From positions 94,799 through 158,798 of IMG/VR virus record IMGVR_UViG_3300002835_000015: DNA of 64,000 nucleotides; one strand, 5' to 3'. Position 1 is the first letter of the stretch. Every line of letters begins with the position of its first letter. Source of the stretch: a virus. Made by a program: the position numbers and the translations under genes. The notes under the pieces were generated by a model. The model was not told where the DNA came from and made no database searches. It saw only the letters and a program-made list of their open reading frames with translations. Shown here in pieces: positions 40,739 to 59,302 of the stretch.

Positions 40739-40828
40739 GCTAAGTCTAGTAGCCACAAGAGTTTACGACAAAGTTTCGCGGCCCCGTTTTTCGCAAAGTC
40801 TTGTCCCATAAGGGTTTACGTCGAGTGG
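40739..40828 (-). repeat. Family A element, copy 1
   Basis: Two dyads of the word CATAAGACTTTACG around TCGCGGCCCCG. Here it lies beyond a conventional terminator of 40903. Confidence 0.8.
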
Positions 40829-40837
40829 TCTAAATAT

Positions 40838-40877
40838 CAAAAGAAGAACCGCCGCAGGATTGCTCCCACGGCGGTTC
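40838..40877 (-). terminator. Probable intrinsic terminator after 40903
   Basis: 9-bp stem GAACCGCCG/CGGCGGTTC, then TTCTTTTG on the minus strand. Confidence 0.78.
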
Positions 40878-40902
40878 CCCTCAGATCACCCTGCCACGAA
40901 GA

Positions 40903-41850
40903 TCAAACGGCGTTCGCAAACTCCATCGCCTTTTCCAAGGCCTTGATATTGTCGTTAGCATTAGCACCGAACCAGAGAGAGTCGAGGCGATTATCCTCAG
41001 TTCGACCCTTATTATAGTTCAGATATTCATTGTAACCATTATAAGCAGCCCACCAAGTACCACGCACATTCGTGGCCGATTGCTTCGGGCCTTCAACGAG
41101 GGCCAGAATCTCGTCCATGATATTACGGGTACGAGTCTTAATATCATCATCAACAGTACCTTCGATACCAAGCATCGTCTTTACATAGCGACGAATATCG
41201 CCCTGATTAAAGTTCTTCGACGCAAGAAATCGGAACTGCTCCGCAGTAGCCTCAAACTGTGAGTTGATATTATCCATGATATCACGAACCTGTTCCAGAT
41301 TATTCTTGCTGGAACGAGTATGGCGAATCCTAATAAGTTGGCTACTCTTATTATTATGGGCCATAGCCAGAGTATTCACGCATACGACACGAATAGGCGT
41401 ATAGCCAACACGAATCGCGGTCGTACCATCGTGCGAGTTACTAAGTAGAATAAACTTACTAACATCATCACCCGGAACAATCTCGCTGCTATCACGGTTG
41501 AGTTGTGCGAGAACCCAAACCTTTTGACCACTGTGAAGCGAACCAGCGGTATGGATGCCACACTCGCCAGCATCAATAAATGGCTGGAACCAATCAAAAG
41601 AATCCTTATTCTGGAGCGGCGTATAACGCGGCCCCACAACACCAAGGATACTACCGTCAGTCTTACGGTATGTAGCACGATGCGAAACCGGAACACCGTC
41701 AACGGTTTGCAGATCCTTAAGTCCAACTTCCCAATCCAGACCAGCAGCGACAATAGCATCTTCGACGCCAATATCAGCATCGACCTTATTGCCAAGACCG
41801 TGCCAAGGGGTAGCACCAACAAACATCATCTGTTCAACAGCAGCAGGCAT
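40903..41850 (-). CDS. DUF932-family phage/plasmid protein
   Basis: 315 residues. TPWHGLG near the start, LDWEV, VVGPRYTPLQN, SHDGTTAIRVGYTPIRVVCVNTLA and IRHTRSSKNNLEQ are hallmark segments of the DUF932 (TIGR03299-like) family, common in phages and plasmids and of unproven function. More GC-rich than the left half of the window; marks the start of the early-type region. Own strong promoter. Confidence 0.88.
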   Translation of the reverse strand: MPAAVEQMMFVGATPWHGLGNKVDADIGVEDAIVAAGLDWEVGLKDLQTVDGVPVSHRATYRKTDGSILGVVGPRYTPLQNKDSFDWFQPFIDAGECGIHTAGSLHSGQKVWVLAQLNRDSSEIVPGDDVSKFILLSNSHDGTTAIRVGYTPIRVVCVNTLAMAHNNKSSQLIRIRHTRSSKNNLEQVRDIMDNINSQFEATAEQFRFLASKNFNQGDIRRYVKTMLGIEGTVDDDIKTRTRNIMDEILALVEGPKQSATNVRGTWWAAYNGYNEYLNYNKGRTEDNRLDSLWFGANANDNIKALEKAMEFANAV

Positions 41851-41892
41851 ATCTAACTCCTTCGTGTAGGTTTCTCGTTCTCTGATGCACTG

Positions 41893-41920
41893 ATTATACA
41901 GTATGTTATCGGCGTGTCAA
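41893..41920 (-). promoter_or_regulatory. Sigma-70-type promoter for 40903
   Basis: -35 TTGACA, 16-bp spacer with GCCGATAA, consensus -10 TATAAT. Confidence 0.92.
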
Positions 41921-41948
41921 GGGCCAAACTTGCGAAAAAATCTATTCG

Positions 41949-42030
41949 TCGTAAGTCGTTTTGCAGCAAGAGTTTACGTCGCGGCCGGGCCAGCAGGCTC
42001 ATCGTAAAGTCTTATGGGCTATAGATTTAG
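41949..42030 (-). repeat. Family A element, copy 2
   Basis: The TAG stop of 42019 lies inside its second dyad; core GCGGCCGGGCC. Confidence 0.85.
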
Positions 42031-42513
42031 GAGAGGCAGTCCCAAGTCACGCTCACAAAGTTTAGAACCTTCATGGTCATCAGGATATCCACACTCTTCG
42101 GGCAGATAGCAATATACACCCAATGCTCTCGCTCTTGGATATTCTTCTTTAATAGTATCCGTAATATGCTTTATCGTTTTTCCAGAGCAAATAAGATCAT
42201 CAATAACCACATACCTAAAAGGAGCAACCCCCTCAGTTGTAAAATCGCTATATCTTCTTTCATCTTTTCTTACCACCAAAATGTTTTTGTTAAGAATCTC
42301 AGCAATCTGTGGAACAACCATCAGACCACTTACTCCGCAACAAGCGATACTGTCAAAGTCTTTACTAATCTTTCGCAGATCACAAACAGCCTTAATAATA
42401 ATCTTATTTCTAATCTTATGATTCAATACATGGCAAGTGTGGCTAGCACCTTGAATGATTCCGCCATCGGTATTACGAACTTCTTCGATTTGCATTTCGT
42501 TTAACGATTTCAT
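42019..42513 (-). CDS. Phosphoribosyltransferase
   Basis: 164 residues. PRPP loop VVIDDLICSGKTIKHI with the acidic pair, and an N-terminal FDSIACCGVSGLMVVPQIAEIL characteristic of type I PRTases (orotate/hypoxanthine types). Base specificity cannot be told. Likely salvages bases to nucleotides. Its promoter is not obvious; a tRNA-like sequence lies just upstream. Confidence 0.82.
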   Translation of the reverse strand: MKSLNEMQIEEVRNTDGGIIQGASHTCHVLNHKIRNKIIIKAVCDLRKISKDFDSIACCGVSGLMVVPQIAEILNKNILVVRKDERRYSDFTTEGVAPFRYVVIDDLICSGKTIKHITDTIKEEYPRARALGVYCYLPEECGYPDDHEGSKLCERDLGLPLLNL

Positions 42514-42516
42514 AAA

Positions 42517-42599
42517 TACGGACGGTACGATTCGAACGTACTAGAAGAGAGAAAGGATAATCCTTATAATAGATACTTGTCCCACCAAGTCGCATCCGT
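42517..42599 (-). tRNA. Degenerate tRNA-like sequence
   Basis: Acceptor ACGGATG/CGTCCGT and T arm GTACG-TTCGAAT-CGTAC are perfect, and a D arm ACTT/AAGT is present. The anticodon arm is poor: the best reading is loop ATTATAA (TAT, Ile) with a 4-bp stem and an 18-nt variable region. May be a decayed or unusual tRNA. Confidence 0.5.
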
Positions 42600-42610
42600 A
42601 ACGAGAGAGT

Positions 42611-42769
42611 TTATTCATCATCCAGTTCGTTAGCGATAGAGTGATAATCAAACTCCCAAGAGTTTTTCATATCTTCAATATCGTTATCATCCTCAAAAAC
42701 GAGATCGTCATCGTACAACTCGTCGATGTTGCTAGAATCATAATAATCACGATCATCATAATAAAGCAT
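42611..42769 (-). CDS. Small acidic protein, 52 residues
   Basis: MLYYDDRDYYDSSNIDELYDDD... Asp/Tyr-rich, similar in style to 56009. Possible DNA mimic by composition only. Follows the promoter at 42791. Confidence 0.62.
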   Translation of the reverse strand: MLYYDDRDYYDSSNIDELYDDDLVFEDDNDIEDMKNSWEFDYHSIANELDDE

Positions 42770-42790
42770 AATACCTCTCCTTCAACCACT

Positions 42791-42819
42791 ATTCTACACC
42801 AACGATCAACGATTGTCAA
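42791..42819 (-). promoter_or_regulatory. Sigma-70-type promoter for 42611
   Basis: -35 TTGACA, 17-bp spacer, -10 TAGAAT; abuts the tRNA-Lys 3' end. Confidence 0.85.
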
Positions 42820-42820
42820 G

Positions 42821-42893
42821 TGGGGCCTGTGGGACTCGAACCCACGACCAAAGGTTTAAAAGACCCTTGCTCTACCAACTGAGCTAAAGCCCC
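42821..42893 (-). tRNA. tRNA-Lys, anticodon TTT
   Basis: Acceptor GGGGCTT/AGGCCCC-type stem, D arm GCTCAGTTGGTAGAGC, anticodon loop CTTTTAA, T arm GTGGGTTCGAGTCCCAC; discriminator A; no CCA. Confidence 0.96.
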
Positions 42894-42904
42894 AACTTAG
42901 CCGT

Positions 42905-42932
42905 ATTATAACGGCATTTTTTCAGTTGTCAA
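42905..42932 (-). promoter_or_regulatory. Promoter of tRNA-Lys with palindromic -10
   Basis: -35 TTGACA, 16-bp spacer, -10 TATAAT set inside the dyad GCCGT-TATAAT-ACGGC, a possible operator. The -35 lies within the end of gene 42922. Confidence 0.82.
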
Positions 42933-43107
42933 CCCCTACATTTTCGTAAGAGAAGGACTCTATTGGATACCCAGTTTTTTGAGATAGCACATCGAACATA
43001 TCATTCAAATCAATATCTTCTGGTACACTCAACCGGCACTCTGTCATAATCTTTTCAGAACCAATAGCAGTTTCACTAAACATATTATAGAAACGAATGG
43101 TTTTCAT
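42922..43107 (-). CDS. Small unknown protein
   Basis: 61 residues, soluble (CRLSVPEDIDLNDMFDVLSQKTGYP). Promoter at 43126. Confidence 0.62.
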   Translation of the reverse strand: MKTIRFYNMFSETAIGSEKIMTECRLSVPEDIDLNDMFDVLSQKTGYPIESFSYENVGVDN

Positions 43108-43125
43108 ACTCTCTCCTTTGGTGGG

Positions 43126-43154
43126 ATTCTACTCTAGAGCTATCGACTTGTCAA
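43126..43154 (-). promoter_or_regulatory. Sigma-70-type promoter for 42922
   Basis: -35 TTGACA, 17-bp spacer with GTCGATA, -10 TAGAAT. Confidence 0.9.
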
Positions 43155-43175
43155 GAGGTCAAACTATAGTTTTTC

Positions 43176-43217
43176 TCGCTGACTATCTTCCACAATCGCA
43201 AATCCGTAGGATTAGGT
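43176..43217 (-). repeat. Family B 3'-end element, copy 6
   Basis: ACCTAATCCTACGGATTTGC ... ATAGTCAGCGAG, then the promoter at 43126. Contains the dyad AATCC-TAC-GGATT. The upstream 70 bp (43218-43285) has no gene with a normal start. Confidence 0.62.
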
Positions 43218-43285
43218 AATCCAGTGGGTGTTTTTGTTTGGGCAGAACACCAAAAACTGCTCAGAACGCCAGCCTCCGTTTTGGT

Positions 43286-43314
43286 ATTGTACTCTAGTTA
43301 TCGGCACTTGTCAA
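43286..43314 (-). promoter_or_regulatory. Sigma-70-type promoter without an evident gene
   Basis: -35 TTGACA, 17-bp spacer with GCCGATAA, -10 TACAAT. The ~130-nt region downstream holds only a short frame without ATG plus family B copy 6, so a small RNA or a peptide with unusual start is possible. Confidence 0.82.
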
Positions 43315-43331
43315 TAGGATTCTTTAACTTG

Positions 43332-43413
43332 GTCTAAGTGCTTATACATAAAGAGTTTATAACAAAACCGGCCGCCAGCGTTTGACGTAAAGTCTTATGT
43401 CTCAATACTTTAA
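43332..43413 (-). repeat. Family A element, copy 3
   Basis: Abuts the 3' end of tRNA-Trp instead of a stop codon; core GGCCGCCAGCG. Confidence 0.85.
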
Positions 43414-43414
43414 G

Positions 43415-43485
43415 CAAAGGCGGGTGGAATTGCACCACCATCTACGGTTTTGGAGACCGTCGTTCTACTATTGAACTACGCCAAT
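43415..43485 (-). tRNA. tRNA-Trp, anticodon CCA
   Basis: Anticodon loop CTCCAAA in stem ACGGT/ACCGT, D arm GTTC/GAAC, T arm GGTGG/CCACC, discriminator G. The acceptor stem has two T-T mismatches near its end. Confidence 0.88.
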
Positions 43486-43488
43486 GTA

Positions 43489-43573
43489 CGGCTGGAACAA
43501 GATTCGAACTTGTGGAGGATTTCTCCTCGTCGGTTTAGTAAACCGGTGCATTAGACCGCTCTGCCATCCAGCC
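43489..43573 (-). tRNA. Second tRNA-Ser with anticodon ACT
   Basis: Class II: acceptor GGCTGGA/TCCAGCC, discriminator G, D loop GAGCGGTCTAATGC, anticodon loop TTACTAA with one C-A mismatch at the stem base, long variable arm. Its anticodon aligns with that of ordinary tRNA-Ser. Confidence 0.86.
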
Positions 43574-43576
43574 AAA

Positions 43577-43648
43577 CTGGCAAGACAAGATTCGAACTTG
43601 TAACCTAGCGGTTAACAGCCGCTTGCACTACCGTTGTGCTACTTGCCA
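43577..43648 (-). tRNA. tRNA-Asn, anticodon GTT
   Basis: Acceptor TGGCAAG/CTTGCCA, anticodon loop CTGTTAA in stem GCGG/CCGC, discriminator G. Confidence 0.94.
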
Positions 43649-43653
43649 ATCAA

Positions 43654-43726
43654 ATGCCCGAAGAGGAATCGAACCTCTAACCAGCTGATCCAAAGTCAGC
43701 CGCTCTACCAGTTAAGCTATCGGGCA
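43654..43726 (-). tRNA. tRNA-Gln, anticodon TTG
   Basis: Acceptor TGCCCGA/TCGGGCA, anticodon loop CTTTGGA in stem GCTGA/TCAGC, T arm AGAGGTTCGATTCCTCT. Confidence 0.94.
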
Positions 43727-43730
43727 ATAA

Positions 43731-43802
43731 AGCCGACAGAGGGAATCGAACCCCCGACAGGTTGTTTACAAAACAACTACTCTACCACTGAGTTACGTCG
43801 GC
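43731..43802 (-). tRNA. tRNA-Thr, anticodon TGT
   Basis: Acceptor GCCGACG/TGTCGGC, anticodon loop TTTGTAA in stem GTTGT/ACAAC, T arm GGGGGTTCGATTCCCTC. First of the five-tRNA cluster after its promoter. Confidence 0.94.
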
Positions 43803-43811
43803 AATCATCCT

Positions 43812-43840
43812 ATTATACTCAATAATCATGATCCTCGCAA
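43812..43840 (-). promoter_or_regulatory. Promoter of the five-tRNA cluster
   Basis: -35 TTGCGA, 17-bp spacer, consensus -10 TATAAT; overlaps the end of gene 43819. Confidence 0.8.
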
Positions 43841-44013
43841 GCCCTACGCTTTTGGGCCGAACGAGTACGCTGACGCTTGGGACGATTATCGAACACGGTA
43901 AACTTGTGTTCCTGATGTCCCTGACGCATCTCCCAAGGCATAACTTTCTTGATTTTGATTACGTTGTGGTTGCGTCGAGGACGCATATCGTCGTTGTTGT
44001 GGAGGGTAATCAT
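43819..44013 (-). CDS. Small basic protein, probably leaderless
   Basis: 64 residues, Arg/Lys/His-rich (RPRRNHNVIKIKK, RPKRQRTRSAQKRR), likely nucleic-acid binding. ATG lies 6 nt after the -10 box, so the mRNA would begin at or next to the start codon; ATGA overlap with the HNH gene gives a second route of translation. Confidence 0.68.
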   Translation of the reverse strand: MITLHNNDDMRPRRNHNVIKIKKVMPWEMRQGHQEHKFTVFDNRPKRQRTRSAQKRRACEDHDY

Positions 44014-44633
44014 GTTTGTATTCTATCGGACTTGTTGTTGTTTGTCAAGCCGTACTCACTAGCCCATTTAAAAATCGTAGTACGAGATACTTTAAGTTTT
44101 TTTGTCAGTTCTATATAAGTATAATCTTTTAATAGATTTTGTAAATATACTTTAGTTGGTTTGTTTAGTATTTTACTTTTTGCAAAACATTTGGGTGAAC
44201 AATATAGTTTGTTCTTCGTCTTATTTTCGCACACTGCACATTTTATAGTCTTGCGATATTTTTTTGGCTCATATTTAAACTCATTTTTGGATTCCACATG
44301 AGTTTCTCTATGACAGTTAGCACACAGAAGATCGCATTTATCTACTTCTTTTTTTAAGATATCTTTAGAATATTTTGTCATATTCATGCCACATATATCA
44401 AACAGTTTTTGAGATGGATCTTTATGATGAAACTCTAAAACTTCTGAATATTTAGCATACCCACATTTACAACATTTTCCTCCAGCATAGTCTATAAGTT
44501 CTTTTCTTATTCTAATACGACGATATTTAGTGGCCTCGCCAGAACATTTTAAACAACGATAGTATTTTCTATCATTAATAAGACTATGTTTTACAAAACC
44601 ATGTTTTTTACATTCTTTTATTTGATGTTTCAT
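44010..44633 (-). CDS. HNH endonuclease with zinc fingers and C-terminal HTH
   Basis: 207 residues from MKHQIKECK (AAGGAG upstream). CxxC fingers (YRCLKCSG, CCKCGYAKYSEVLEFHHKDPS, DLLCANCHRETH) include the HNH site; a second finger AVCENK...CSPKCF and a C-terminal ELTKKLKVSRTTIFKWASEYG helix-turn-helix follow. Free-standing homing enzyme. The promoter of 43819 lies inside its 3' end. Confidence 0.87.
   Translation of the reverse strand: MKHQIKECKKHGFVKHSLINDRKYYRCLKCSGEATKYRRIRIRKELIDYAGGKCCKCGYAKYSEVLEFHHKDPSQKLFDICGMNMTKYSKDILKKEVDKCDLLCANCHRETHVESKNEFKYEPKKYRKTIKCAVCENKTKNKLYCSPKCFAKSKILNKPTKVYLQNLLKDYTYIELTKKLKVSRTTIFKWASEYGLTNNNKSDRIQT
44020..44048 (-). promoter_or_regulatory. Sigma-70-type promoter for 43819
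   Basis: -35 TTGACA, 17-bp spacer, -10 TAGAAT, then 6 nt to ATG. Confidence 0.85.
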
Positions 44634-44656
44634 GCTGTATCTCCTTCGGATACATA

Positions 44657-44665
44657 GATATACAC
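44657..44665 (-). promoter_or_regulatory. GTGTATATC motif upstream of HNH gene
   Basis: Weak member of the GTGTATA set, 24 bp before the HNH start. Confidence 0.22.
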
Positions 44666-44671
44666 CAAATG

Positions 44672-44929
44672 TCATCTTTTTGATGATACTGTACTATATT
44701 TTCTTTGTTCTGGCGGAAAATCGTACCATTGACCATTTTCATGTTGATAAAAAACTTTGTTTACGTTAGGATCATACGCCATTAAACAGTATTGTACCGG
44801 ATAAACTACCTTTGTCAACTCTTTTTGTTGAGTCAACTCTGGGATTTTTATATTCCCACTTTGATAATCTTTTACACCATTATAGGCCAACCCTAACAGG
44901 GCAATAAGCACACCAACCCATTGTAGCAT
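44672..44929 (-). CDS. Small membrane-anchored protein
   Basis: Start taken at MLQWVGVLIALLGL (AAGGA 8 nt upstream); longer starts exist. 85 residues: one transmembrane helix, then PVQYCLMAYDPNVNKVFYQHENGQWY. Two promoter-like sites lie inside the frame, so a shorter product is possible. Confidence 0.62.
   Translation of the reverse strand: MLQWVGVLIALLGLAYNGVKDYQSGNIKIPELTQQKELTKVVYPVQYCLMAYDPNVNKVFYQHENGQWYDFPPEQRKYSTVSSKR
44791..44818 (-). promoter_or_regulatory. Internal promoter-like site
   Basis: TTGACA, 16-bp spacer, TACAAT inside gene 44672. May be fortuitous. Confidence 0.35.
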
Positions 44930-44947
44930 TGTTCCGTTCCTTGTCAA
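44920..44947 (-). promoter_or_regulatory. Promoter-like site at the start of 44672
   Basis: TTGACA, 16-bp spacer, TACAAT followed by GGGTTGGTGTG, similar to the box after the sites at 39513 and 40459. Confidence 0.45.
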
Positions 44948-45006
44948 GACCCGCTTCTCATCCATAGAGTATTTATCGGTCAAAAGGCCCGACCAACTTT
45001 AGAAAA

Positions 45007-45090
45007 TCCTAAACCCTTACTCTGCAACACTTTACGACAAATCGCCGCGGCCCGCCTTGATGCAAAGTCTTATGCACCAAGGACTTATGG
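45007..45090 (-). repeat. Family A element, copy 4
   Basis: Ends 5 bp before the stop of 45095; core GCCGCGGCCCGCC. Confidence 0.85.
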
Positions 45091-45094
45091 CTAT

Positions 45095-46303: not shown

Positions 46304-46332
46304 ATTCTATACTACAGTATCGTCATTGTCAA
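46304..46332 (-). promoter_or_regulatory. Sigma-70-type promoter for the 45578-45095 operon
   Basis: -35 TTGACA, 17-bp spacer with GACGATA, -10 TAGAAT. Confidence 0.9.
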
Positions 46333-46371
46333 GAGAAAACTTTATAGGTTGTTGCAGAAAACGAAACAACT

Positions 46372-46452
46372 TGTAAGTGCTTGTGCTACAAGAGTTTACG
46401 TCGATCCCTGCGGCCCCGATTTGACGCAAAGTCTTATGATACAAGGATTTAG
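46372..46452 (-). repeat. Family A element, copy 5
   Basis: Abuts the 3' end of tRNA-Asp; core TGCGGCCCCG. Confidence 0.85.
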
Positions 46453-46526
46453 CGAGAATGACGGGACTCGAACCCGCAACCTCTAGCGTGACAGGCTAGC
46501 GATCTAACCGATTGATCTACATTCCC
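46453..46526 (-). tRNA. tRNA-Asp, anticodon GTC
   Basis: Acceptor GGGAATG/CATTCTC, anticodon loop CTGTCAC in stem CTAGC/GCTAG, T arm GCGGGTTCGAGTCCCGT, discriminator G. Confidence 0.95.
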
Positions 46527-47081: not shown

Positions 47082-47109
47082 AGTATACCTTAGTTATCGG
47101 CACTGTCAA
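47082..47109 (-). promoter_or_regulatory. Distal promoter of 46691
   Basis: -35 TTGACA, 16-bp spacer with GCCGATAA, -10 TATACT. The ~65 bp to the proximal promoter holds no gene. Confidence 0.87.
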
Positions 47110-47140
47110 CCCCTTTCCATTAGTATTTTTCACGATTGTT

Positions 47141-47222
47141 CCTAAGTCGTTATACGATAAGAGTTTACGTTGAACCGCCGCGGCCGTCCTCGCCGCAAAG
47201 TCTTATGCGGCAAGGCTTTAGG
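47141..47222 (-). repeat. Family A element, copy 6
   Basis: Ends 1 bp from the stop of 47224; core CCGCGGCCG. Confidence 0.88.
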
Positions 47223-47223
47223 C

Positions 47224-48722: not shown

Positions 48723-48751
48723 AGTATATCTCTATTATCGGGCGTTGTCAA
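48723..48751 (-). promoter_or_regulatory. Sigma-70-type promoter for the 28-residue frame
   Basis: -35 TTGACA, 17-bp spacer with CCCGATAA, -10 TATACT. Confidence 0.88.
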
Positions 48752-48769
48752 GAGTTTTCTTTAAAAAAT

Positions 48770-48850
48770 CCTAAATGGTTGAACCATAAGACTTTACGTC
48801 AAGTCTCTGTCGCCCCCCTTATCCTAAACTCTTGCGAGTAAAGGACTTAG
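48770..48850 (-). repeat. Family A element, copy 7
   Basis: The TAA of 48847 lies inside its last word. Confidence 0.85.
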
Positions 48851-49020
48851 GAGTTCTTATAAACTAGATCAACATACTTATCGACCAGTTCACTTACCGA
48901 TATCTCATGTAATCCAATCAACTCTTTAGCCTTGTCTACATTATGCTTATTTACAGCGGCCATTCTATTCTTGAAAAAACTAAGAATATAAATCATAGCC
49001 TTTGTACGATCTTCATTCAT
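48847..49020 (-). CDS. Small helical protein, 57 residues
   Basis: MNEDRTKAMIYILSFFKNRM... helical. ATGA-type overlap with 49017; stop inside family A copy 7. Confidence 0.65.
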   Translation of the reverse strand: MNEDRTKAMIYILSFFKNRMAAVNKHNVDKAKELIGLHEISVSELVDKYVDLVYKNS

Positions 49021-49934: not shown

Positions 49935-49963
49935 ATTCTACACTAGTATTATCGGCTTGTCAA
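49935..49963 (-). promoter_or_regulatory. Sigma-70-type promoter for the 49653-48847 operon
   Basis: -35 TTGACA, 17-bp spacer with GCCGATAA, -10 TAGAAT. Confidence 0.92.
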
Positions 49964-49981
49964 TAGGCTTTTCTTTAGCAA

Positions 49982-50065
49982 TCCTAAGTTGTTGGTGGGT
50001 AAGACTTTACGACGAATGTGGCCGCGTCAGTTTGTCCTAAACTCTTAGAGGATAAGCATTTAGAG
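49982..50065 (-). repeat. Family A element, copy 8
   Basis: Follows the tRNA-like gene at 50112 by ~45 bp; core GGCCGCGTC; flanked by AGCGAACC as in copy 9. Confidence 0.83.
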
Positions 50066-50111
50066 CGAACCCCTTTTGAATATGGTATACCGGCTGTTAA
50101 TGGATCGACTT

Positions 50112-50187
50112 AGTGGATAGATGGATTCGAACCATCAACTCCTCTTGTATTTAAACAAGTGGAACTCTACCTTTGAGTTATACCCAC
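50112..50187 (-). tRNA. Unusual tRNA, anticodon uncertain (TAA or AAA region)
   Basis: Acceptor GTGGGTA/TATCCAC, D arm ACTC/GAGT, T arm GATGG-TTCGAAT-CCATC are normal. The anticodon arm is a perfect CTTGT/ACAAG hairpin with a 6-nt loop TTAAAT, or CTTG/CAAG with an 8-nt loop; neither gives a standard 7-nt loop. Leu(TAA) would need the 8-nt form. Confidence 0.6.
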
Positions 50188-50567
50188 CGATAGTTTTACA
50201 AATAGTGTCCGGTATCACGCACTATTCAACCCTAACGGCTCTCGCAGTCTTAGGTTTCTATCCGACCCCTGTTTGTTACCAGCGAACCTTTTACGCCCCG
50301 ATTCTTACCCTCACCAGTATGGAGCGACCATACCGATTTGGAACCGCCCACGCTCACTTTCGTCCAGTTGCGAACTGGCTCAGGCAAGAGGCGACGGCTA
50401 CTGGTTGTATTGCTCGTGGTGAGGATGCCATCCCTCATAGATTGGTATCACTATACAGTATATAACCCTACTGTCAACCCCGGCGATGATTACGTCTTCG
50501 CTGAACGGGAGGTTTATCGTGATAGGTTATCCAATCTAGTCCCGTCGCATGGACCCACGGATGTTTG
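50188..50567 (-). ncRNA. Candidate structured non-coding RNA upstream of the tRNA
   Basis: 380 bp with no credible gene, clearly more GC-rich than its surroundings. Minus-strand hairpins include CCAGTT-CGC-AACTGG, GTATGG-TCGC-TCCATAC, GGATG-GCATCC and AATAGTG/CACTATT, with conserved-looking unpaired ACGAAAGTGAG and GGTGAGGGTAAG. A promoter (50450) lies inside; the RNA would run into the tRNA. The setting (phage, next to tRNAs) recalls large ornate RNAs such as GOLLD or ROOL, but no match is claimed. Confidence 0.5.
50450..50477 (-). promoter_or_regulatory. Promoter within the structured-RNA region
   Basis: -35 TTGACA, 16-bp spacer, -10 TATAGT; would start a ~260-nt leader ending at the tRNA. 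Confidence 0.72.
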
Positions 50568-50781: not shown

Positions 50782-50810
50782 ATTATACACTCCTATTATC
50801 GGTCTGTCAA
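50782..50810 (-). promoter_or_regulatory. Sigma-70-type promoter for 50568
   Basis: -35 TTGACA, 17-bp spacer with ACCGATAA, consensus -10 TATAAT. Confidence 0.93.
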
Positions 50811-50840
50811 GAGCATATTCTGTAGAAAAAACTTTTTGAT

Positions 50841-50920
50841 GCAAGTCTATAGGAGATAAGAGTTTACGTCGAATCCGGCCGCGGCGGTTTGCCCTAAACT
50901 CTTGGTAGTCAAGAACTTAG
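50841..50920 (-). repeat. Family A element, copy 9
   Basis: Only copy in which the central arms AAGAGTTTA and TAAACTCTT pair perfectly; core CCGGCCGCGGCGG. Confidence 0.88.
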
Positions 50921-50935
50921 AGCGAACCAGCCTTT

Positions 50936-51807: not shown

Positions 51808-51835
51808 ATTATACACATTATCGACCAGTTGTCAA
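51808..51835 (-). promoter_or_regulatory. Sigma-70-type promoter for 51633/tRNA-Glu
   Basis: -35 TTGACA, 16-bp spacer with GTCGATAA, consensus -10 TATAAT. Confidence 0.9.
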
Positions 51836-51853
51836 TACCATCTTTAGTTTTTC

Positions 51854-51934
51854 TCTAAATCCTTATCCCATAAGACTTTATATCAAATCGGGCCGCCCAT
51901 CATTGTCCTAAACTCTTATTCACAAACACTTTAG
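51854..51934 (-). repeat. Family A element, copy 10
   Basis: Overlaps the stop codon of 51931; core GGGCCGCCC. Confidence 0.86.
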
Positions 51935-52086
51935 GTCAACACAATATCATCCCCCGATACATAATACTGATCGTCAGCATGATTCAATACAAGATACATA
52001 GGAGGATTAGTTTTATCCGATACGTCAATAATAACAACATCCTCATCCTGCATAATATCATGAACAATATTGCCAATCTTATACAT
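51931..52086 (-). CDS. Small acidic beta protein, 51 residues
   Basis: MYKIGNIVHDIMQDEDVVIID... like a small SH3-type barrel. Coupled to 52086. Confidence 0.62.
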   Translation of the reverse strand: MYKIGNIVHDIMQDEDVVIIDVSDKTNPPMYLVLNHADDQYYVSGDDIVLT

Positions 52087-52586: not shown

Positions 52587-52615
52587 AATATACTGTCAGT
52601 ATCGGGTTTTGTCAA
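52587..52615 (-). promoter_or_regulatory. Sigma-70-type promoter for 52086-51931
   Basis: -35 TTGACA, 17-bp spacer with CCCGATAC, -10 TATATT. Confidence 0.88.
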
Positions 52616-52633
52616 TAGAATGCTTGAGATTTT

Positions 52634-52722
52634 TCTAAGTCTATGGCAGATAAGACTTTACGTCAATCCCATGCGGAGTGCCTCGCCCTAAACTCTTGGC
52701 TTGCAAGAACTTAGAGCGAGGT
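52634..52722 (-). repeat. Family A element, copy 11
   Basis: Flank AGAGCGAG; the gene at 52745 ends 23 bp away, one of the looser spacings. Confidence 0.84.
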
Positions 52723-53198: not shown

Positions 53199-53226
53199 AG
53201 TATACATCTATTATCGGCATTGTCAA
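53199..53226 (-). promoter_or_regulatory. Sigma-70-type promoter for 52745
   Basis: -35 TTGACA, 16-bp spacer with GCCGATAA, -10 TATACT. Confidence 0.92.
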
Positions 53227-53254
53227 GCCCTATCCTTGAAGAAATCTTTTTGCC

Positions 53255-53336
53255 ACAAGTCCTTATGCCACAACAGTTTGTGAAAAACGCCTGCGGCCAC
53301 CCATGCTGCAAAGTCTTATGCAGCAAGGGTTTATGG
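53255..53336 (-). repeat. Family A element, copy 12
   Basis: Ends 1 bp from the stop of 53338; core TGCGGCCACCC. Confidence 0.87.
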
Positions 53337-54103: not shown

Positions 54104-54132
54104 ATTCTACCAGCCTAAACTTTAGAAGTCAA
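54104..54132 (-). promoter_or_regulatory. Class 2 promoter for 53862-53618
   Basis: -35 TTGACT, 17-bp spacer starting TCTAAAG, -10 TAGAAT, followed by CCGATATAAAG. Confidence 0.85.
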
Positions 54133-54150
54133 GCATATTTTTTTGAAAAT

Positions 54151-54231
54151 CGTAAGTTGTTGTGTCTCAATAGTTTGCGTCAAATGCGGCCGCTGGGCCT
54201 TGGCGTAAACTCTTACGCATCAAGGCTTTAG
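54151..54231 (-). repeat. Family A element, copy 13
   Basis: Ends 1 bp from the stop of 54233; core GCGGCCGCTGGGCC. Confidence 0.87.
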
Positions 54232-54232
54232 A

Positions 54233-54298
54233 TCACTTGGTCTTAGAGTCGTTCATTTTCTTTAAGGCTTCCACAATCATAGGGATTCCAGAAAACAT
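54233..54298 (-). CDS. Tiny peptide, 21 residues
   Basis: MFSGIPMIVEALKKMNDSKTK. Last of a chain of four tiny genes; stop abuts family A copy 13, as real operon ends do. Confidence 0.42.
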   Translation of the reverse strand: MFSGIPMIVEALKKMNDSKTK

Positions 54299-54665: not shown

Positions 54666-54694
54666 ATTCTACACTACTATTATCGACTTGTCAA
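54666..54694 (-). promoter_or_regulatory. Sigma-70-type promoter for the tiny-gene operon
   Basis: -35 TTGACA, 17-bp spacer with GTCGATAA, -10 TAGAAT. Confidence 0.91.
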
Positions 54695-54713
54695 GCCCCA
54701 GTCTTCAATATTT

Positions 54714-54793
54714 CTAAGTCCTTACTGCACAACAGTTTGCGTCAAACGCTGGCGGCGGGCCTTGGCGTAAAGTGTTACGCTTCAAGGCTTTAG
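54714..54793 (-). repeat. Family A element, copy 14
   Basis: Ends 1 bp from the stop of the 18-codon frame at 54795; core GGCGGCGGGCC. Confidence 0.87.
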
Positions 54794-54794
54794 G

Positions 54795-54851
54795 TCACCA
54801 CCGGCCAGTACCATACCATTTCAATAGTTCATAGACATTTATTGCATACAT
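54795..54851 (-). CDS. Possible tiny peptide, 18 residues
   Basis: MYAINVYELLKWYGTGRW, its ATG next to the stop of 54851, its stop abutting family A copy 14. Supported by position only. Confidence 0.35.
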   Translation of the reverse strand: MYAINVYELLKWYGTGRW

Positions 54852-55156: not shown

Positions 55157-55186
55157 ATTCTTTCCTTTGGTGGTGATGATGTTAGG

Positions 55187-55403: not shown

Positions 55404-55429
55404 GTTTTCTCCTTTGTTCTTATATCGAC

Positions 55430-55458
55430 ATTATACAGTCCGTTCTTTAGGCTGTCAA
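55430..55458 (-). promoter_or_regulatory. Class 2 promoter for 55212
   Basis: -35 TTGACA, 17-bp spacer with CCTAAAG, -10 TATAAT, then GTCGATATAAG. Confidence 0.9.
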
Positions 55459-55485
55459 CAAGAAAATAAAAGATTCTTGATTTGT

Positions 55486-55566
55486 TCTAAGGTCTTGAAT
55501 CTAAAGAGTTTACGTCAAGTCTGTGCGGCCCGATTCGTCGTAAAGTCTTATGCGACAAGTAGTTAG
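55486..55566 (-). repeat. Family A element, copy 15
   Basis: Here it faces the plus-strand HNH gene rather than a stop codon, probably because that gene was inserted; core GTGCGGCCCG. Confidence 0.84.
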
Positions 55567-55625
55567 ATTATTATGATATTGGTGTATAAACCATAGTCTA
55601 CATTTCCATACCGGAGACGAGTACT

Positions 55626-56024
55626 ATGGCAAAATATGATCCACAAGAATATCAGCGAAATAAAGAGTCTTACAAGATTAGAAACCAAAGATACAAGAGC
55701 AAACATAGGTCTATGGTGAACCAAAAACAATCGGAATATAGATCAAAAACAAAAGATAAAATCAATCAGTATTCTAAAAGTCGTAGAAATAAAATAAGGA
55801 TTCTATATGATGAATACATGAAAGATAAATCTTGCTTACATTGTGGATATGATGATTCTCGCTCTCTCGTATGGCATCATACCGACCCATCACAAAAGAA
55901 AAATGGAGTTGTTCAGTTGGTTGGTAAAAAACACGGGTGGGATACTATCATGACAGAAATAAACAAATGTATATGCTTATGCCATAATTGTCATAATATA
56001 TTACATAATCACCAGTCACCATAG
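55626..56024 (+). CDS. Plus-strand HNH endonuclease
   Basis: 132 residues: Lys/Arg/Tyr-rich N-terminal helix, then CLHCGYDDSRSLVWHHTDPSQK and CICLCHNCHNILH (zinc-HNH core). Inserted against the local direction; its 3' end overlaps 56009. Confidence 0.87.
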   Translation: MAKYDPQEYQRNKESYKIRNQRYKSKHRSMVNQKQSEYRSKTKDKINQYSKSRRNKIRILYDEYMKDKSCLHCGYDDSRSLVWHHTDPSQKKNGVVQLVGKKHGWDTIMTEINKCICLCHNCHNILHNHQSP

Positions 56025-56308: not shown

Positions 56309-56312
56309 CTTT

Positions 56313-56381
56313 TTACTCTTTTGCAATGGTACAGAAACAAAGCCCAACATAGGCCACAACGAACAGCATAGCACTAAACAT
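56313..56381 (-). CDS. Tiny membrane peptide, 22 residues
   Basis: MFSAMLFVVAYVGLCFCTIAKE, one helix, between 56390 and 56009 in the same operon. Confidence 0.42.
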   Translation of the reverse strand: MFSAMLFVVAYVGLCFCTIAKE

Positions 56382-56389
56382 AGTTTTTG

Positions 56390-56599
56390 TCAAGCCTCCA
56401 CGATTTCGGGATAAATATCTTCGACCAGAATCTCAGCCAGACCCGTAACCTCTGCCCAATCCATCGGGTGGCAGTCGGGTTCGTCAATCGGCTCTACCAT
56501 AGGCTCGATGATACCCTGCTCTGCAAGGTAACTCAGTTGGCTGTTTGCTTCGTCTAAGTCGTGAAACATTTTCGAGCCCTCGTTGGTTGTGATCATCAT
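56390..56599 (-). CDS. Small acidic protein, leaderless
   Basis: 69 residues from MMITTNEGSKMFHDLDEANSQL. ATG 6 nt after the -10 box. Unknown. Confidence 0.68.
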   Translation of the reverse strand: MMITTNEGSKMFHDLDEANSQLSYLAEQGIIEPMVEPIDEPDCHPMDWAEVTGLAEILVEDIYPEIVEA

Positions 56600-56605
56600 G
56601 CCACG

Positions 56606-56633
56606 ATTATACACATAATATCGGCCAATGCAA
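56606..56633 (-). promoter_or_regulatory. Sigma-70-type promoter for 56390-56009
   Basis: -35 TTGCAT, 16-bp spacer with GCCGATAT, consensus -10 TATAAT, then ATG after 6 nt. Confidence 0.85.
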
Positions 56634-56676
56634 GTGGAGATATGAATCTTTTTCCTTACAATGCTGCAAGTTTCGC

Positions 56677-56754
56677 AACTCGTTGACGGATAAGAGTTTA
56701 CGTCAAACGCGGGCGGCGGGCCTCGTCTCAAAGTCTTATGCGGCAAGGCTTTAG
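56677..56754 (-). repeat. Family A element, copy 16
   Basis: Ends 1 bp from the stop of 56756; core GGGCGGCGGGCC. Confidence 0.87.
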
Positions 56755-56755
56755 G

Positions 56756-57088
56756 TCAACCCCTCCAACCGAAGGGTGAAACTTCCTCGCCCGATGCCAT
56801 AATGGCAGCATACTGGTCGGCCAACGCTGCCTTACGCTCAGCCGAACCGGGCTTGCCAACGGGTACAATCATGGTATCCTCTCCCCCATTGTAGCGAGAG
56901 TCAACCTTTTCCGCCTTAGCCTTACTACCCTTGCGGAGAGCCTTGCGATTGAACTTGTGAATCTTTTCACTGTGAATCGGGCCATACAATCCATCGGCAA
57001 GGGACGGCTGATGCCGAGTGGCCATACCAACAAAGCACATGCGAACCTGACGCTTGGCATCTTCGATAATCTTGAACTTGGTAGCCAT
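56756..57088 (-). CDS. Small basic protein, unknown
   Basis: 110 residues; basic middle (KFNRKALRKGSKAKAEKV), then VPVGKPGSAERKAALADQYAAI. Possibly nucleic-acid binding. Confidence 0.7.
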   Translation of the reverse strand: MATKFKIIEDAKRQVRMCFVGMATRHQPSLADGLYGPIHSEKIHKFNRKALRKGSKAKAEKVDSRYNGGEDTMIVPVGKPGSAERKAALADQYAAIMASGEEVSPFGWRG

Positions 57089-57115
57089 TTTCTTTTTCCT
57101 CTTGGTGATGAACGT

Positions 57116-57144
57116 ATTTTACAGAAACTTTTTTGTCTTGTCAA
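57116..57144 (-). promoter_or_regulatory. A-rich-spacer promoter for 56756
   Basis: -35 TTGACA, 17-bp spacer with AAAAAAGTTTCTG, -10 TAAAAT; sister sites at 57785 and 58067. Confidence 0.85.
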
Positions 57145-57159
57145 CCCCTCTAGTGGGGG

Positions 57160-57375
57160 TCATGAGACGCCCATCCAAGAGGCTTTTTCCATACAGAAGT
57201 TATAGAACATATCGTTCAGCATTTCTTCGTAGTTGCTTTCCGTGAGTCTACGCCGATCATTCGTCGCCTCGCACTCAGCAAACAGTTTACCGTCTGCCGT
57301 ATACAGTAGCACCACATTGTACGTTTCGCTACCCCAAATCTGACGCAAAGCATTTTTGATTTCGTTGGATATCAT
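57160..57375 (-). CDS. Small unknown protein
   Basis: 71 residues (VVLLYTADGKLFAECEATNDRRRLTE). Unknown. Confidence 0.65.
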   Translation of the reverse strand: MISNEIKNALRQIWGSETYNVVLLYTADGKLFAECEATNDRRRLTESNYEEMLNDMFYNFCMEKASWMGVS

Positions 57376-57402
57376 TTTGTTTCCTCTTTCTCTTATATCG
57401 TC

Positions 57403-57430
57403 ATTATACAGGGTATTTCTTAGAGATCAA
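57403..57430 (-). promoter_or_regulatory. Class 2 promoter for 57160
   Basis: -35 TTGATC, 16-bp spacer with TCTAAGAA, -10 TATAAT, then GACGATATAAG. Confidence 0.83.
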
Positions 57431-57460
57431 GCAAAAAGTTTCCTTAAAAGATCGCAAGGT

Positions 57461-57543
57461 TCGTAAGTCGTTATGCGACAAGACTTTGCGAAAAACCGAG
57501 CCGCCACCGCTCGACGTAAAGTCTTGCGGCTATTGAGTTTACG
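57461..57543 (-). repeat. Family A element, copy 17
   Basis: Includes the TAA of 57539; core GAGCCGCCACCG. Confidence 0.86.
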
Positions 57544-57754
57544 TTGCGTGAATGAATACCTTTTCGCTCGTGGTCTTATTTGTGATCGTCACAATCCAGT
57601 TACGACCACTACCATCCTCACGCATGATGCCATTCACAAGGCCAGCATAAACCCTACCCTTCGGATCGATCACACTAGTATACTTACCAGCGATCATGGA
57701 CGAGAAGATAGTATTGAGGCTGTTCTGTCGATTGGCGTAGGCGGTTCCGAACAT
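57539..57754 (-). CDS. Small beta-rich protein
   Basis: 71 residues (YTSVIDPKGRVYAGLVNGI). Unknown. Confidence 0.65.
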   Translation of the reverse strand: MFGTAYANRQNSLNTIFSSMIAGKYTSVIDPKGRVYAGLVNGIMREDGSGRNWIVTITNKTTSEKVFIHAT

Positions 57755-57784
57755 TTTCTTTTTCCTTGTGGTGATGATGAAGTT

Positions 57785-57812
57785 ATTTTACAGAAACTTT
57801 TTTGCTTGTCAA
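57785..57812 (-). promoter_or_regulatory. A-rich-spacer promoter for 57539
   Basis: -35 TTGACA, 16-bp spacer with AAAAAAGTTTCTG, -10 TAAAAT. Confidence 0.85.
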
Positions 57813-57818
57813 TCCCCT

Positions 57819-58040
57819 CTATCGTAGGGTAATCAAGCCATTGAAGTGCGAGAAGGTAAGAGTAAGAGTCTTGCCAGGATACTTCTGGTCGATATACGCT
57901 TGAGCGGTACTCTTGCGATTATCGGTAGCGGCAACGTGTTGCACTACCATACCATTCTCATCCGTAACCTTCCAAACTTTCTTTTCCACAATCCTAGGAA
58001 GGGTGCCGATGAAGTCGTTGATATGAGTTGCTTGTTCCAT
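57819..58040 (-). CDS. Small unknown protein
   Basis: 73 residues (KKVWKVTDENGMVVQHVAATDNRKSTAQAYIDQ). Unknown. Confidence 0.66.
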   Translation of the reverse strand: MEQATHINDFIGTLPRIVEKKVWKVTDENGMVVQHVAATDNRKSTAQAYIDQKYPGKTLTLTFSHFNGLITLR

Positions 58041-58066
58041 CTTCTTTCTCTCTTTCTTGTGATTCT

Positions 58067-58095
58067 ATTCTATCAAAACTTTTTCGTATCGTCAA
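58067..58095 (-). promoter_or_regulatory. A-rich-spacer promoter for 57819
   Basis: -35 TTGACG, 17-bp spacer with GAAAAAGTTTTGA, -10 TAGAAT. Confidence 0.8.
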
Positions 58096-58100
58096 CCCCC

Positions 58101-58247
58101 TCAAATGGCGAAGGTGTTCATAAACCTTTCGGCCTCATATGAACTCTTGAACGTAGCAAGCAGTTGACGGTGATATCCATTCGGATACTTCTTTTCCCGA
58201 TAAACCTTATACTTACCCTTCACAACGATCAGAACCAGATTTTCCAT
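58101..58247 (-). CDS. Small basic protein, 48 residues
   Basis: MENLVLIVVKGKYKVYREKKYPN...; begins like small phage beta-type proteins. Promoter at 58281. Confidence 0.62.
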   Translation of the reverse strand: MENLVLIVVKGKYKVYREKKYPNGYHRQLLATFKSSYEAERFMNTFAI

Positions 58248-58280
58248 TTCTTTCTCTCTTTCCTTTTCTCTTATATCGAC

Positions 58281-58308
58281 ATTATACCATCCATACTTTA
58301 GAAGTCAA
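58281..58308 (-). promoter_or_regulatory. Class 2 promoter for 58101
   Basis: -35 TTGACT, 16-bp spacer with TCTAAAGTATGGATGG, -10 TATAAT, then GTCGATATAAG. Confidence 0.9.
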
Positions 58309-58374
58309 CAAAAATCTTTCCTTACAATATCGTAAGATTTCTTACAGCAAATATCATGCCAAAACTCTGCTTAT

Positions 58375-58459
58375 CTTAAGTTGTTATGCTGTAAGAGTTT
58401 GCGTCAAGCCCCTGCGCCCCGCCTCGCCGTAAAGTGTTATGTAGCAAGGATTTACGTCG
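58375..58459 (-). repeat. Family A element, copy 18
   Basis: Core CCTGCGCCCCGCC; the stop of 58482 is 23 bp away. Confidence 0.84.
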
Positions 58460-58481
58460 AGTGCATACCTCTAGTGGGGGG

Positions 58482-58802
58482 TTAGCCCACCTTGAACATG
58501 AAAACCCTAGAAATCCCACATGACGATACCCCCCAACTGGGGCAATCATACAGCCAATCGGGCAACCCCTTACAATGGGGAGGATGATAGCCGTCAACGT
58601 GTAGCGTATTATTATCATCCGGCAACCGCTGTACGATCAGGCCATGAGATTCTAGTTTGCAAATCATTTCAGAAACAGACATTATTTTTTCCTTGGGTTG
58701 CATATCATATCCAAGATTATACTTTTTTCGCAAGTATCTTACCTTATCCTTAGTAGCATTTGCGTCCATTCCAATCCGATTCAATCTTGCAAAACTATTC
58801 AT
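58482..58802 (-). CDS. Unknown protein
   Basis: 106 residues from MNSFARLNRIGM (AAGGA upstream). Helical N-terminus, Cys/His/Pro-rich C-terminal half (HPPHCKGLPDWLYDCPSWG). Not recognised. Confidence 0.66.
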   Translation of the reverse strand: MNSFARLNRIGMDANATKDKVRYLRKKYNLGYDMQPKEKIMSVSEMICKLESHGLIVQRLPDDNNTLHVDGYHPPHCKGLPDWLYDCPSWGVSSCGISRVFMFKVG

Positions 58803-58830
58803 TTTCTTTCCTTGTGAGAGTATTCTATAT

Positions 58831-58851
58831 AATCTCCTTACTGGGGAGATT
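58831..58851 (-). repeat. AATCTCC/GGAGATT inverted repeat
   Basis: 7-bp dyad with a 7-nt loop at the end of 58850, next to TAGAAT. May be an operator or weak terminator for 58482. Confidence 0.45.
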
Positions 58852-59068
58852 AGATTCCCTCTCCATCGTCAAGACCGGGAATGTAATCGATATCAGCATG
58901 AGAAACATAGTCGGCGTTGAGCCGACCAACGTTGCCTTCCTCGTCGCGTACAGTAAGGGTATTATCGTCGTTCACCGACTCGACTCGATAAACCGGATAG
59001 TTCTCACAATCAAGCCCATATTCTTCATCACTCTCAACCCAATCGCCAACTGAAAAACTGCCGATCAT
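58850..59068 (-). CDS. Small acidic beta-barrel-like protein
   Basis: 72 residues (FSVGDWVESDEEYG...YPVYRVESVNDDNTLTVRDEEGN), an SH3/KOW-like arrangement. Promoter at 59110. Confidence 0.67.
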   Translation of the reverse strand: MIGSFSVGDWVESDEEYGLDCENYPVYRVESVNDDNTLTVRDEEGNVGRLNADYVSHADIDYIPGLDDGEGI

Positions 59069-59109
59069 TTTCTTTTCCTTTTCTCTTCTGTCTTACTTCT
59101 TATATCGAC

Positions 59110-59137
59110 ATTATACAGACATATCTTTAGGTTGCAA
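59110..59137 (-). promoter_or_regulatory. Class 2 promoter for 58850
   Basis: -35 TTGCAA, 16-bp spacer with CCTAAAG, -10 TATAAT, then GTCGATATAAG. First early promoter from the right. Confidence 0.86.
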
Positions 59138-59220
59138 GCGAAATCTTTTATTTTTTTTATTTTTTTTAGAGAATATATTATTCTTTATTCTTTGGCATAG
59201 CATTTGCTAGGGTCATTTAA

Positions 59221-59302
59221 CGTAAGTCCTTATCCCATAAGAGTTTAGGGCAACTTTTGCGGCCATAACTCGTCGTAAAGTCTTACGCCACAACACTTTA
59301 GG
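59221..59302 (-). repeat. Family A element, copy 19
   Basis: Rightmost copy; core TGCGGCC. 59138-59220 is a T-rich tract with no gene. Confidence 0.85.

Follow-up and report, generated by a model that had tools for sequence, protein, structure and literature searches.

What is the function of a palindromic element of about 80 bp that stands 19 times, on a single strand throughout, in one part of a phage genome? The element lies in a 64,000-base window (the whole stretch of DNA that we analysed), the end portion of the 158,798-base uncultured virus record IMGVR_UViG_3300002835_000015. The record carries genes for DnaB, PolIII alpha, RecA and ribonucleotide reductase, plus receptor-type tail genes (Mtd_N), and was assigned on these grounds to a phage of bacteria. 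A sequence-only reading of the window had proposed a factor-dependent terminator, a processing site or a DNA-bridging site at operon ends. We consider it probable (about 0.6) that the element is instead a docking or operator site, acting at the DNA level, for a protein that controls the promoter downstream; that promoters are regulated at the DNA level, by whatever route, is very likely.

All 19 copies listed by the sequence-only reading aligned with one another across about 85 bp. Allowing 2 mismatches at most, the word CGTAAAGTCTTATG matched 25 times in the 158,798-base record (24 times inside the array), versus once for the reversed control. A profile of the copies, run at 12 bits or more over the whole record, returned just the 19, each on both strands, and no further copy. 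A degenerate pattern built on the two inner words had matches in 53 viral-contig stretches, and the profile placed 308 copies (204 distinct) in 49 oriented loci, the window counted; the loci overlap and related contigs repeat one another, so that the 308 copies are not independent. The orientation was common to 305 of the 308 copies, with a median spacing of 855 bp. A sequence model found matches in 14 of 18 records, up to 50 over both strands and hence about 25 copies. The order of units was mostly conserved among relatives, with units gained and lost.

The element is about 82 bp long and has the predicted order of words, W1-W2-core-W1'-W2', which gives two dyads around a GC-rich core. Its consensus on the transcribed strand is CCTAAAnCCTTGnnGCATAAGACTTTACG, followed by a core of about 24 bp and then CGTAAACTCTTnTnGnATAAnGACTTAGG; no GTT box was seen in this consensus, GTT being where integron attC sites, whose folded strand has extrahelical bases, are cut. 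As read from the alignment columns, each word comes close to a palindrome of 5-4-5 build, C(G/A)TAA-N4-TTA(C/T)G. In the consensus, 15 bp separate the words of a pair, and 53 bp, or about five helix turns, separate the two pairs. This geometry is fixed: both inner words matched in 183 of the 204 distinct copies, 182 of these with a separation of 38 bp and none with more than one pair, and 284 of the 301 copies scoring at least 35 had an identical length (87). The mismatch that had been noticed in the centre is kept as well, the opposed bases being C-C in 129, G-G in 23, C-G in 17, G-C in 9 and other in 3 of 181 distinct copies.

The position of the element is kept relative to the promoter that follows. 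We measured the distance d from element column 87 to the -35 hexamer, with promoter range limits of 70, 75, 110 or 130 bp depending on the analysis; the phasing counts took copies scoring at least 35 with a match length of 87, and the phasing tests, like those on the core promoter below, were devised after inspection of the data. A strict sigma-70 promoter lay within 130 bp in 216 of the 278 standard-length copies with 131 bp of downstream sequence; the 216 form 52 downstream-homology groups. Under a relaxed rule a promoter was found for 246 of 275 copies; among the 62 copies without a strict promoter, duplicates removed, most of those listed had TATAAT with a weak -35 (TTGCAT, TTGCAA or TTGATC).

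The modal distances of the groups were clustered: 14 bp in 11 groups and 15 in 8 (19 together); 22 in 1, 23 in 4, 24 in 6, 25 in 9, 26 in 2 and 27 in 5 (27 together); 34, 35 and 38 in one each (3 together); 56 in 1 and 62 in 2. No group had its mode at 16-21 or 28-33 bp. The resultant length R was 0.72 at a period of 10.5 bp, versus a maximum of 0.46 among 10,000 jitter controls, and the control with stop-codon distances of non-abutting groups gave R = 0.09 (n = 21). Distances thus fall near multiples of about 10.5 bp, with exceptions in homologous groups, in diverged arrays and in arrays of a second type (see below). Homologous promoters also differed in spacing by about one turn (14/24/35, 27/37, 3/14 and 14/24); the 13 steps within groups were 4, 6, 7, 9, 10, 10, 10, 10, 11, 11, 41, 43 and 48 bp, seven of them about one turn (9-11 bp) and those of 41 and 43 bp four turns.

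Promoters behind an element carry a further box, CGATA, in their core. It was present in 0.93 of 148 element-bearing promoters versus 0.29 of 142 promoters without an element in the same arrays, and, counted by homology group, in 51 of 53 versus 7 of 45 (Fisher p = 1.3e-17). The box starts either 9-12 bp from the -35, in the spacer (consensus about GCCGATAATA), or 30-31 bp from it, directly behind the -10 (GTCGATATAAG); two helix turns lie between, and the spacer box would be at about -26, with the alternative place two turns downstream. The distance from element to CGATA was 23-26, 33-37, 43-47 or 54-58 bp in 52 of 55 groups.

In the window, the expectation that a promoter follows nearly every copy was borne out for 18 of 19, copy 16 at 56670 with its weak -35 included and copy 1 at 40735 being the exception; the abutment of two copies on tRNA 3' ends also held (tRNA-Trp from 43414 and tRNA-Asp from 46452). 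The copies are as follows, with d in bp and plus offsets counted from the start of the -35.

40735..40821, minus strand: copy 1, the sole copy with no promoter by the rules used; 82 bp past the stop of a DUF932 gene
41946..42032, minus strand: copy 2, d 25; promoter 41893..41920 (minus), CGATA box 9 bp after the -35 start
43329..43415, minus strand: copy 3, d 14, adjoining the tRNA-Trp 3' end; promoter 43286..43314 (minus), CGATA at +11
45004..45090, minus strand: copy 4, d 56; promoter 44920..44947 (minus), without CGATA
46368..46454, minus strand: copy 5, d 35, adjoining the tRNA-Asp 3' end; promoter 46304..46332 (minus), CGATA at +10
47137..47223, minus strand: copy 6, the top score, d 27; promoter 47082..47109 (minus), CGATA at +10
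48766..48852, minus strand: copy 7, G-G type, d 14; promoter 48723..48751 (minus), CGATA at +11
49979..50065, minus strand: copy 8, G-G type, d 15; promoter 49935..49963 (minus), CGATA at +9
50836..50922, minus strand: copy 9, d 25; promoter 50782..50810 (minus), CGATA at +9
51850..51936, minus strand: copy 10, G-G type, d 14; promoter 51808..51835 (minus), CGATA at +12
52630..52716, minus strand: copy 11, G-G type, d 14; promoter 52587..52615 (minus), CGATA at +11
53247..53336, minus strand: copy 12, d 20, measured from a match end placed 3 bp too far (about 23 when set to the frame of the other copies); promoter 53199..53226 (minus), CGATA at +10
54147..54233, minus strand: copy 13, d 14; promoter 54104..54132 (minus), CGATA directly after the -10 (+31)
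54709..54795, minus strand: copy 14, d 14; promoter 54666..54694 (minus), CGATA at +9
55482..55568, minus strand: copy 15, d 23; promoter 55430..55458 (minus), CGATA directly after the -10 (+31)
56670..56756, minus strand: copy 16, d 36; weak promoter 56606..56633 (minus), TTGCAT-16-TATAAT, with CCGATAT in the spacer as read from the sequence
57458..57544, minus strand: copy 17, d 27; promoter with weak -35, 57403..57430 (minus), TTGATC-16-TATAAT, CGATA at +30
58371..58457, minus strand: copy 18, d 62; promoter 58281..58308 (minus), CGATA at +30
59217..59303, minus strand: copy 19, the first of the array, d 79; promoter with weak -35, 59110..59137 (minus), TTGCAA-16-TATAAT, CGATA at +30

Two other motifs occur near these promoters. 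A second palindrome, CCTTACGATATTGTAAGG and variants, stands just upstream of weak -35 promoters (approximately 57420-57450, 56640-56665 and 58318-58345 of the window), and a third motif, TTTGGCATGATATTTGCTG / CAGCAAATATCGTGCCAAA, was seen near the first array promoters of several related phages, in the window at approximately 58345-58365 and 59195-59215 and in locus L185.

We propose that the element belongs to the promoter downstream and provides a docking site on double-stranded DNA. Its four words of 14 bp, each nearly palindromic and arranged in two 29-bp pairs with the GC-rich core between them, would bind copies of a sequence-specific protein; as element and promoter core are mostly whole helix turns apart, the bound protein would face a partner on the same side, which could be a protein that occupies the CGATA box or else the C-terminal domain of the RNA polymerase alpha subunit (alpha-CTD). 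The DNA bridging suggested earlier may occur in this form, though between the element and the core promoter. About 20 putatively early promoters would thereby be switched together. Provided that control is exerted on the DNA, repression is somewhat the likelier sign, and coordinated repression stands slightly ahead of activation of the class I kind, because the CGATA box falls within the region covered by polymerase and has two alternative places, separated by two turns.

Activation is the alternative that fares best, and we regard it as possible. A protein on the element would touch the alpha-CTD and raise transcription, and CGATA would be a promoter element for a phage factor or for polymerase in modified form. 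Sites near -61, -71 and -82 on one helix face are known from class I activator promoters and from the Fis-activated rrn P1 promoters; by our own arithmetic, the nearest word centres of the element are at about -60.5, -71 and -81.5, equal to the class I positions of CRP. The clustered spacing is also consistent with activation, as is the high AT content between -46 and -55 (0.76 with the element versus 0.57 without), which suits an UP element, and weak -35 variants often have an extra palindrome near the -35. On the other hand, the hexamers are equally good with or without the element (perfect TTGACA in 0.86 and 0.87, respectively), and CGATA occurs at two positions 21 bp apart beneath the polymerase. 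Unlike the class I and rrn P1 promoters, moreover, the element is present in some 20 copies in a phage, has four words in each and is coupled to CGATA.

The word itself is exchanged between related phages. In the downstream regions of 14 related records, most of which have diverged four-word elements, we collected 121 near-complete copies in 11 loci; L197, which duplicates L186, was omitted, and so were L185 and L193, which are of the second type. Of these copies, 71 had a promoter within 75 bp, and CGATA was present in 66 of the 71. Two records, G021 and G030, contained a different palindrome, CTGCCAAAATGGCAG, 31 and 21 times, respectively (up to 1 mismatch), which occurred once in G023 and not at all in the other 12 of the 15 records. 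The four-word profiles found nothing in G030 and nothing above 17 bits in G021. Before many of their promoters CTGCCAAAATGGCAG occurs in pairs, the two palindromes of a pair lying 29 bp apart around a GC-rich core (15 pairs in G021, 11 in G030). The CGATA-like box, for which CGATC and CGTATA were also accepted here, was found in 24 of 28 promoters with a CTGCCAAAATGGCAG palindrome versus 11 of 40 without. For the same 28 promoters, the distances from the nearest palindrome to the -35 were 13, 22-25 (15 of 28), 36 and at least 48 bp (11 of 28). A change of word at every site of an array that leaves promoter and box intact would be expected from a sequence-specific protein acting in trans.

Such a protein could belong to the host, a nucleoid or regulatory protein that binds the words, so that the two word types would reflect different hosts. 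No phage gene that cleanly separates the word types was found, as this explanation predicts, yet it seems unlikely: in a collection of cellular genomes the inner-word pattern matched 38 stretches with one site each and match lengths of 39-51 bp, which by a rough estimate is about the level of chance, and of 12 cellular genomes 2 had the second palindrome, each at a single site, though the true hosts may lie outside this set. For the same reasons (single sites, variable length, near-chance number) a cellular origin of the element was rejected. Among known phages, no match was found to the region (by megablast) or to a single element, and two marker proteins of the region had no match in 50,697 phage records; these phages may thus have no cultured member. 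A distant search with 7.5 kb returned 94 records, the 20 matches listed among them being about 70-80 bp long and mostly labelled tRNA genes.

That the element serves chiefly as a terminator, a roadblock or a processing site at operon ends, where a bound protein halts upstream transcription or the RNA is cut, we consider improbable. Its constant orientation fits such a role, and so do the stops or tRNA 3' ends that adjoin the left edge in many copies and the small number of terminator-like sites in the region (18 in 19.9 kb versus 13.1 expected). In the window, a stop codon lies inside the element or within 5 bp of its left edge in 8 of 19 copies (9 with a doubtful 55-aa open reading frame (ORF)), not in about eleven as had been counted; with every array included, a stop fell at -10 to +35 of the left edge in 25 of 43 homology groups, on the basis of 239 of 281 copies with a measurable ORF. 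The sequence-only reading had made stop placement in relatives one of its tests. This does not discriminate between the models, because a compact genome sets stops beside any functional element.

In 181 of the 204 distinct copies (effective number 57), Watson-Crick pairs on the three dyad diagonals showed no excess compared with independent columns (+0.08, -0.68 and -0.19, each a sum over pairs), and columns 24 and 61, which face each other in the central dyad, paired in 0.17 versus 0.35 expected, so that the mismatch is retained. Five copies folded on both strands gave unlike structures. The element lacks the GC-rich stem followed by a T tract of an intrinsic terminator: the earlier statement that no T tracts follow was correct for most copies, as 30 of the 308 have TTTTT close to their right edge. 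A strict terminator scan found none overlapping the 308 copies, which is weak evidence since it missed the hairpin behind the DUF932 gene too; a laxer scan detected that hairpin, strong and terminator-like, beside copy 40735, together with two 5-pair stems within copies at 43379 and 57516. An RNA stem, terminator or processing site was rejected on the combined outcome of folding, terminator scans, mutual information and a survey of every diagonal for Watson-Crick excess. The preference already voiced for a repeated protein-binding word over an RNA stem agrees with the absent dyad covariation, the kept mismatch and the differing folds. Termination or processing as the main role, in contrast, leaves the spacing to the promoter and the link to CGATA unexplained and does not suit copy 40735, which sits behind a terminator-like hairpin; action as a roadblock is possible as an addition to the promoter role.

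Least probable is a recombination site bounding mobile gene cassettes, whether like integron attC or through homologous exchange between cassettes resembling promoter early stem-loops (PeSLs): the units of about 1 kb run in one direction, each ends in an imperfect palindrome and some are gained or lost between relatives, but their order is mostly conserved, no phasing to a promoter is needed, and the tyrosine recombinase that attC needs in the same genome was not found (no Phage_integrase match in the 14 records searched, several of them fragments), so that an integron-like array was dropped.

Several observations weigh against an operator phased to its promoter. R is flat, periods of 10 to 12 bp fitting equally; the steps of 4, 6, 7 and 48 bp match no whole turn, and individual copies stand at 17, 20, 28 and 82 bp. 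Units of element, AT-rich stretch and promoter may have been copied jointly, so that shared distances would be partly ancestral and the 52 groups not fully independent. Copy 40735 has only a weak TAGACG-17-TACAAT, seen by eye 19 bp off and out of phase, and its homologues lack even a promoter of the weak -35/TATAAT kind. In diverged arrays R was only 0.47 at 10.5 bp and 27 of 71 promoters were outside the phased classes (44 inside); an extra palindrome (CCTTACGATATTGTAAGG and variants) lies between element and promoter in 10 of the 27 versus 2 of the 44, and to name it as the reason for their spacing is an explanation after the fact. In arrays of the second type, the 11 distances of at least 48 bp are a further exception, and the 24 that fall below 75 bp give R = 0.49. 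Among distinct strict promoters of the arrays, about half (142 of 290) lack the element, which is hence an addition to a subset of promoters. Three of the five folded copies fold better than shuffled sequences on the transcribed strand (z -2.1 to -3.7), and one diagonal (columns 8-18 with 27-37) has a slight Watson-Crick excess; columns 14 and 31 have the highest in the element (0.48 versus 0.28 expected), which the dyads do not explain. Stops adjoin the left edge in many groups, as a gene-end role likewise predicts, and no binding protein was found.

Among known systems, the closest are the PeSLs of T4-type phages and the stoperators of mycobacteriophages, from each of which the element departs in a defining feature; it would belong to the known kind of phage operator arrays, with new features. 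No description of it was found in the literature searched, which excludes most subscription papers, the original PeSL papers among them. PeSLs were reportedly described by Arbiol et al. in 2010 and Comeau et al. in 2014. According to the accessible portions of later sources, a PeSL is an intergenic unit that joins a palindromic element to an early promoter, and such units recur across a variable region rich in genes (PMC4503421, PMC3950731). The same kind of repeated unit is seen here, with a promoter, probably early, directly downstream in 18 of 19 window copies and 246 of 275 copies by the relaxed rule. What the element does not share is the transcript stem-loop terminator, as judged from its dyads without covariation, kept mismatch and differing folds. 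As far as those accounts go, it is further set apart from PeSLs by a fixed-length geometry of four palindromes, phased spacing, a CGATA box in the core, and another element throughout the arrays of relatives. PeSLs are linked to shuffling of the genes beside them; here the order is mostly kept, with units gained and lost.

The stoperators of cluster A mycobacteriophages are, in the consulted parts of the sources, single, asymmetric sites of 13 bp to which a repressor binds (PMC6550527; see also PMC9283540). Like them, the element is present at tens of sites, most of which point the same way with respect to transcription (305 of 308 here), and its sequence differs by phage; unlike them, it is a multi-palindrome of about 80 bp phased to a promoter, and no repressor was found here, whereas that of the stoperators is an immunity repressor that blocks elongation. 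HGTV-1, a large tailed virus with many tRNAs, has an inverted repeat and a TATA motif before many genes (PMC3950731, from the portion available), a similar combination of inverted repeat and promoter-like motif. Its promoter is of the archaeal type, and that portion describes neither a four-word build nor a core box.

A candidate for one partner is encoded just upstream of the array, at 60055..60300 (minus strand). This 81-aa protein is well conserved in many uncultured phages and has a three-helix, helix-turn-helix (HTH)-like part and an AT-hook-like tail; the segment TAMVRRQRRKL...RGRP was nearly invariant among 36 sequences. The structure model has a confident three-helix domain (mean pLDDT 92-94, residues 11-50) and a disordered tail. 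A fold search gave no solved-structure match at E of 0.001 or below, the weak hits including helix-turn-helix proteins, and the phage isolate collection held no match. A scan found relatives in 183 stretches of viral contigs, of which 80 were kept, some being array contigs already known. Within about 3 kb downstream of the gene, 45 of the 80 had the four-word type, 2 the other type and 26 neither, and 7 were too short; arrays in the class with neither may start further off. The 81-aa protein is common to both word types. It may be a regulator, and it would suit the CGATA box better than the exchanged words, as both protein and box are constant.

A comparison of the proteomes of the two types produced no convincing DNA-binding protein that tracks the word, though G030, G002 and G000 are partial and a gene could be missed there. 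A 103-aa protein, HTH-like by eye, was rejected as a binder specific for the four-word type, being present at 84% in G021, which has the second type. At 60532-61188 (plus strand), a sigma-70 region 2-like ORF (E 1.8e-4, below the Pfam cut-off) is transcribed away from the array and is a possible late sigma factor.

As a tentative extension of the operator model, we suggest a two-part regulon code in which a conserved phage protein, perhaps that of 81 aa with its HTH/AT-hook-like features, reads the constant CGATA box, and the upstream operator is exchangeable and confers specificity. Each genome would have one operator type, with four C(G/A)TAA-N4-TTA(C/T)G or two CTGCCAAAATGGCAG, much as in immunity groups, with no integrase found. 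The arrangement points to a means by which some twenty promoters of a large phage could be switched jointly. The code of element, phased spacing, core box and exchangeable word predicts partners that can be tested, and the exchange of words among related phages would amount to a natural experiment on a genome-wide change of regulon specificity.

Other genes of the window were noted in passing. Within the array region, 50111-50188 is a tRNA-like gene whose anticodon was not determined. ORFs at 55626-56024 (plus strand) and 44010-44675 (minus strand), inside array units, are endonuclease-like by eye; HNH families were matched by two or three of 77 scanned proteins, the members not being named and the ORF at 55626-56024 lying outside the scan. 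A phage-borne tmRNA gene is located at 28500-28848, with the tag GETRFALAA.

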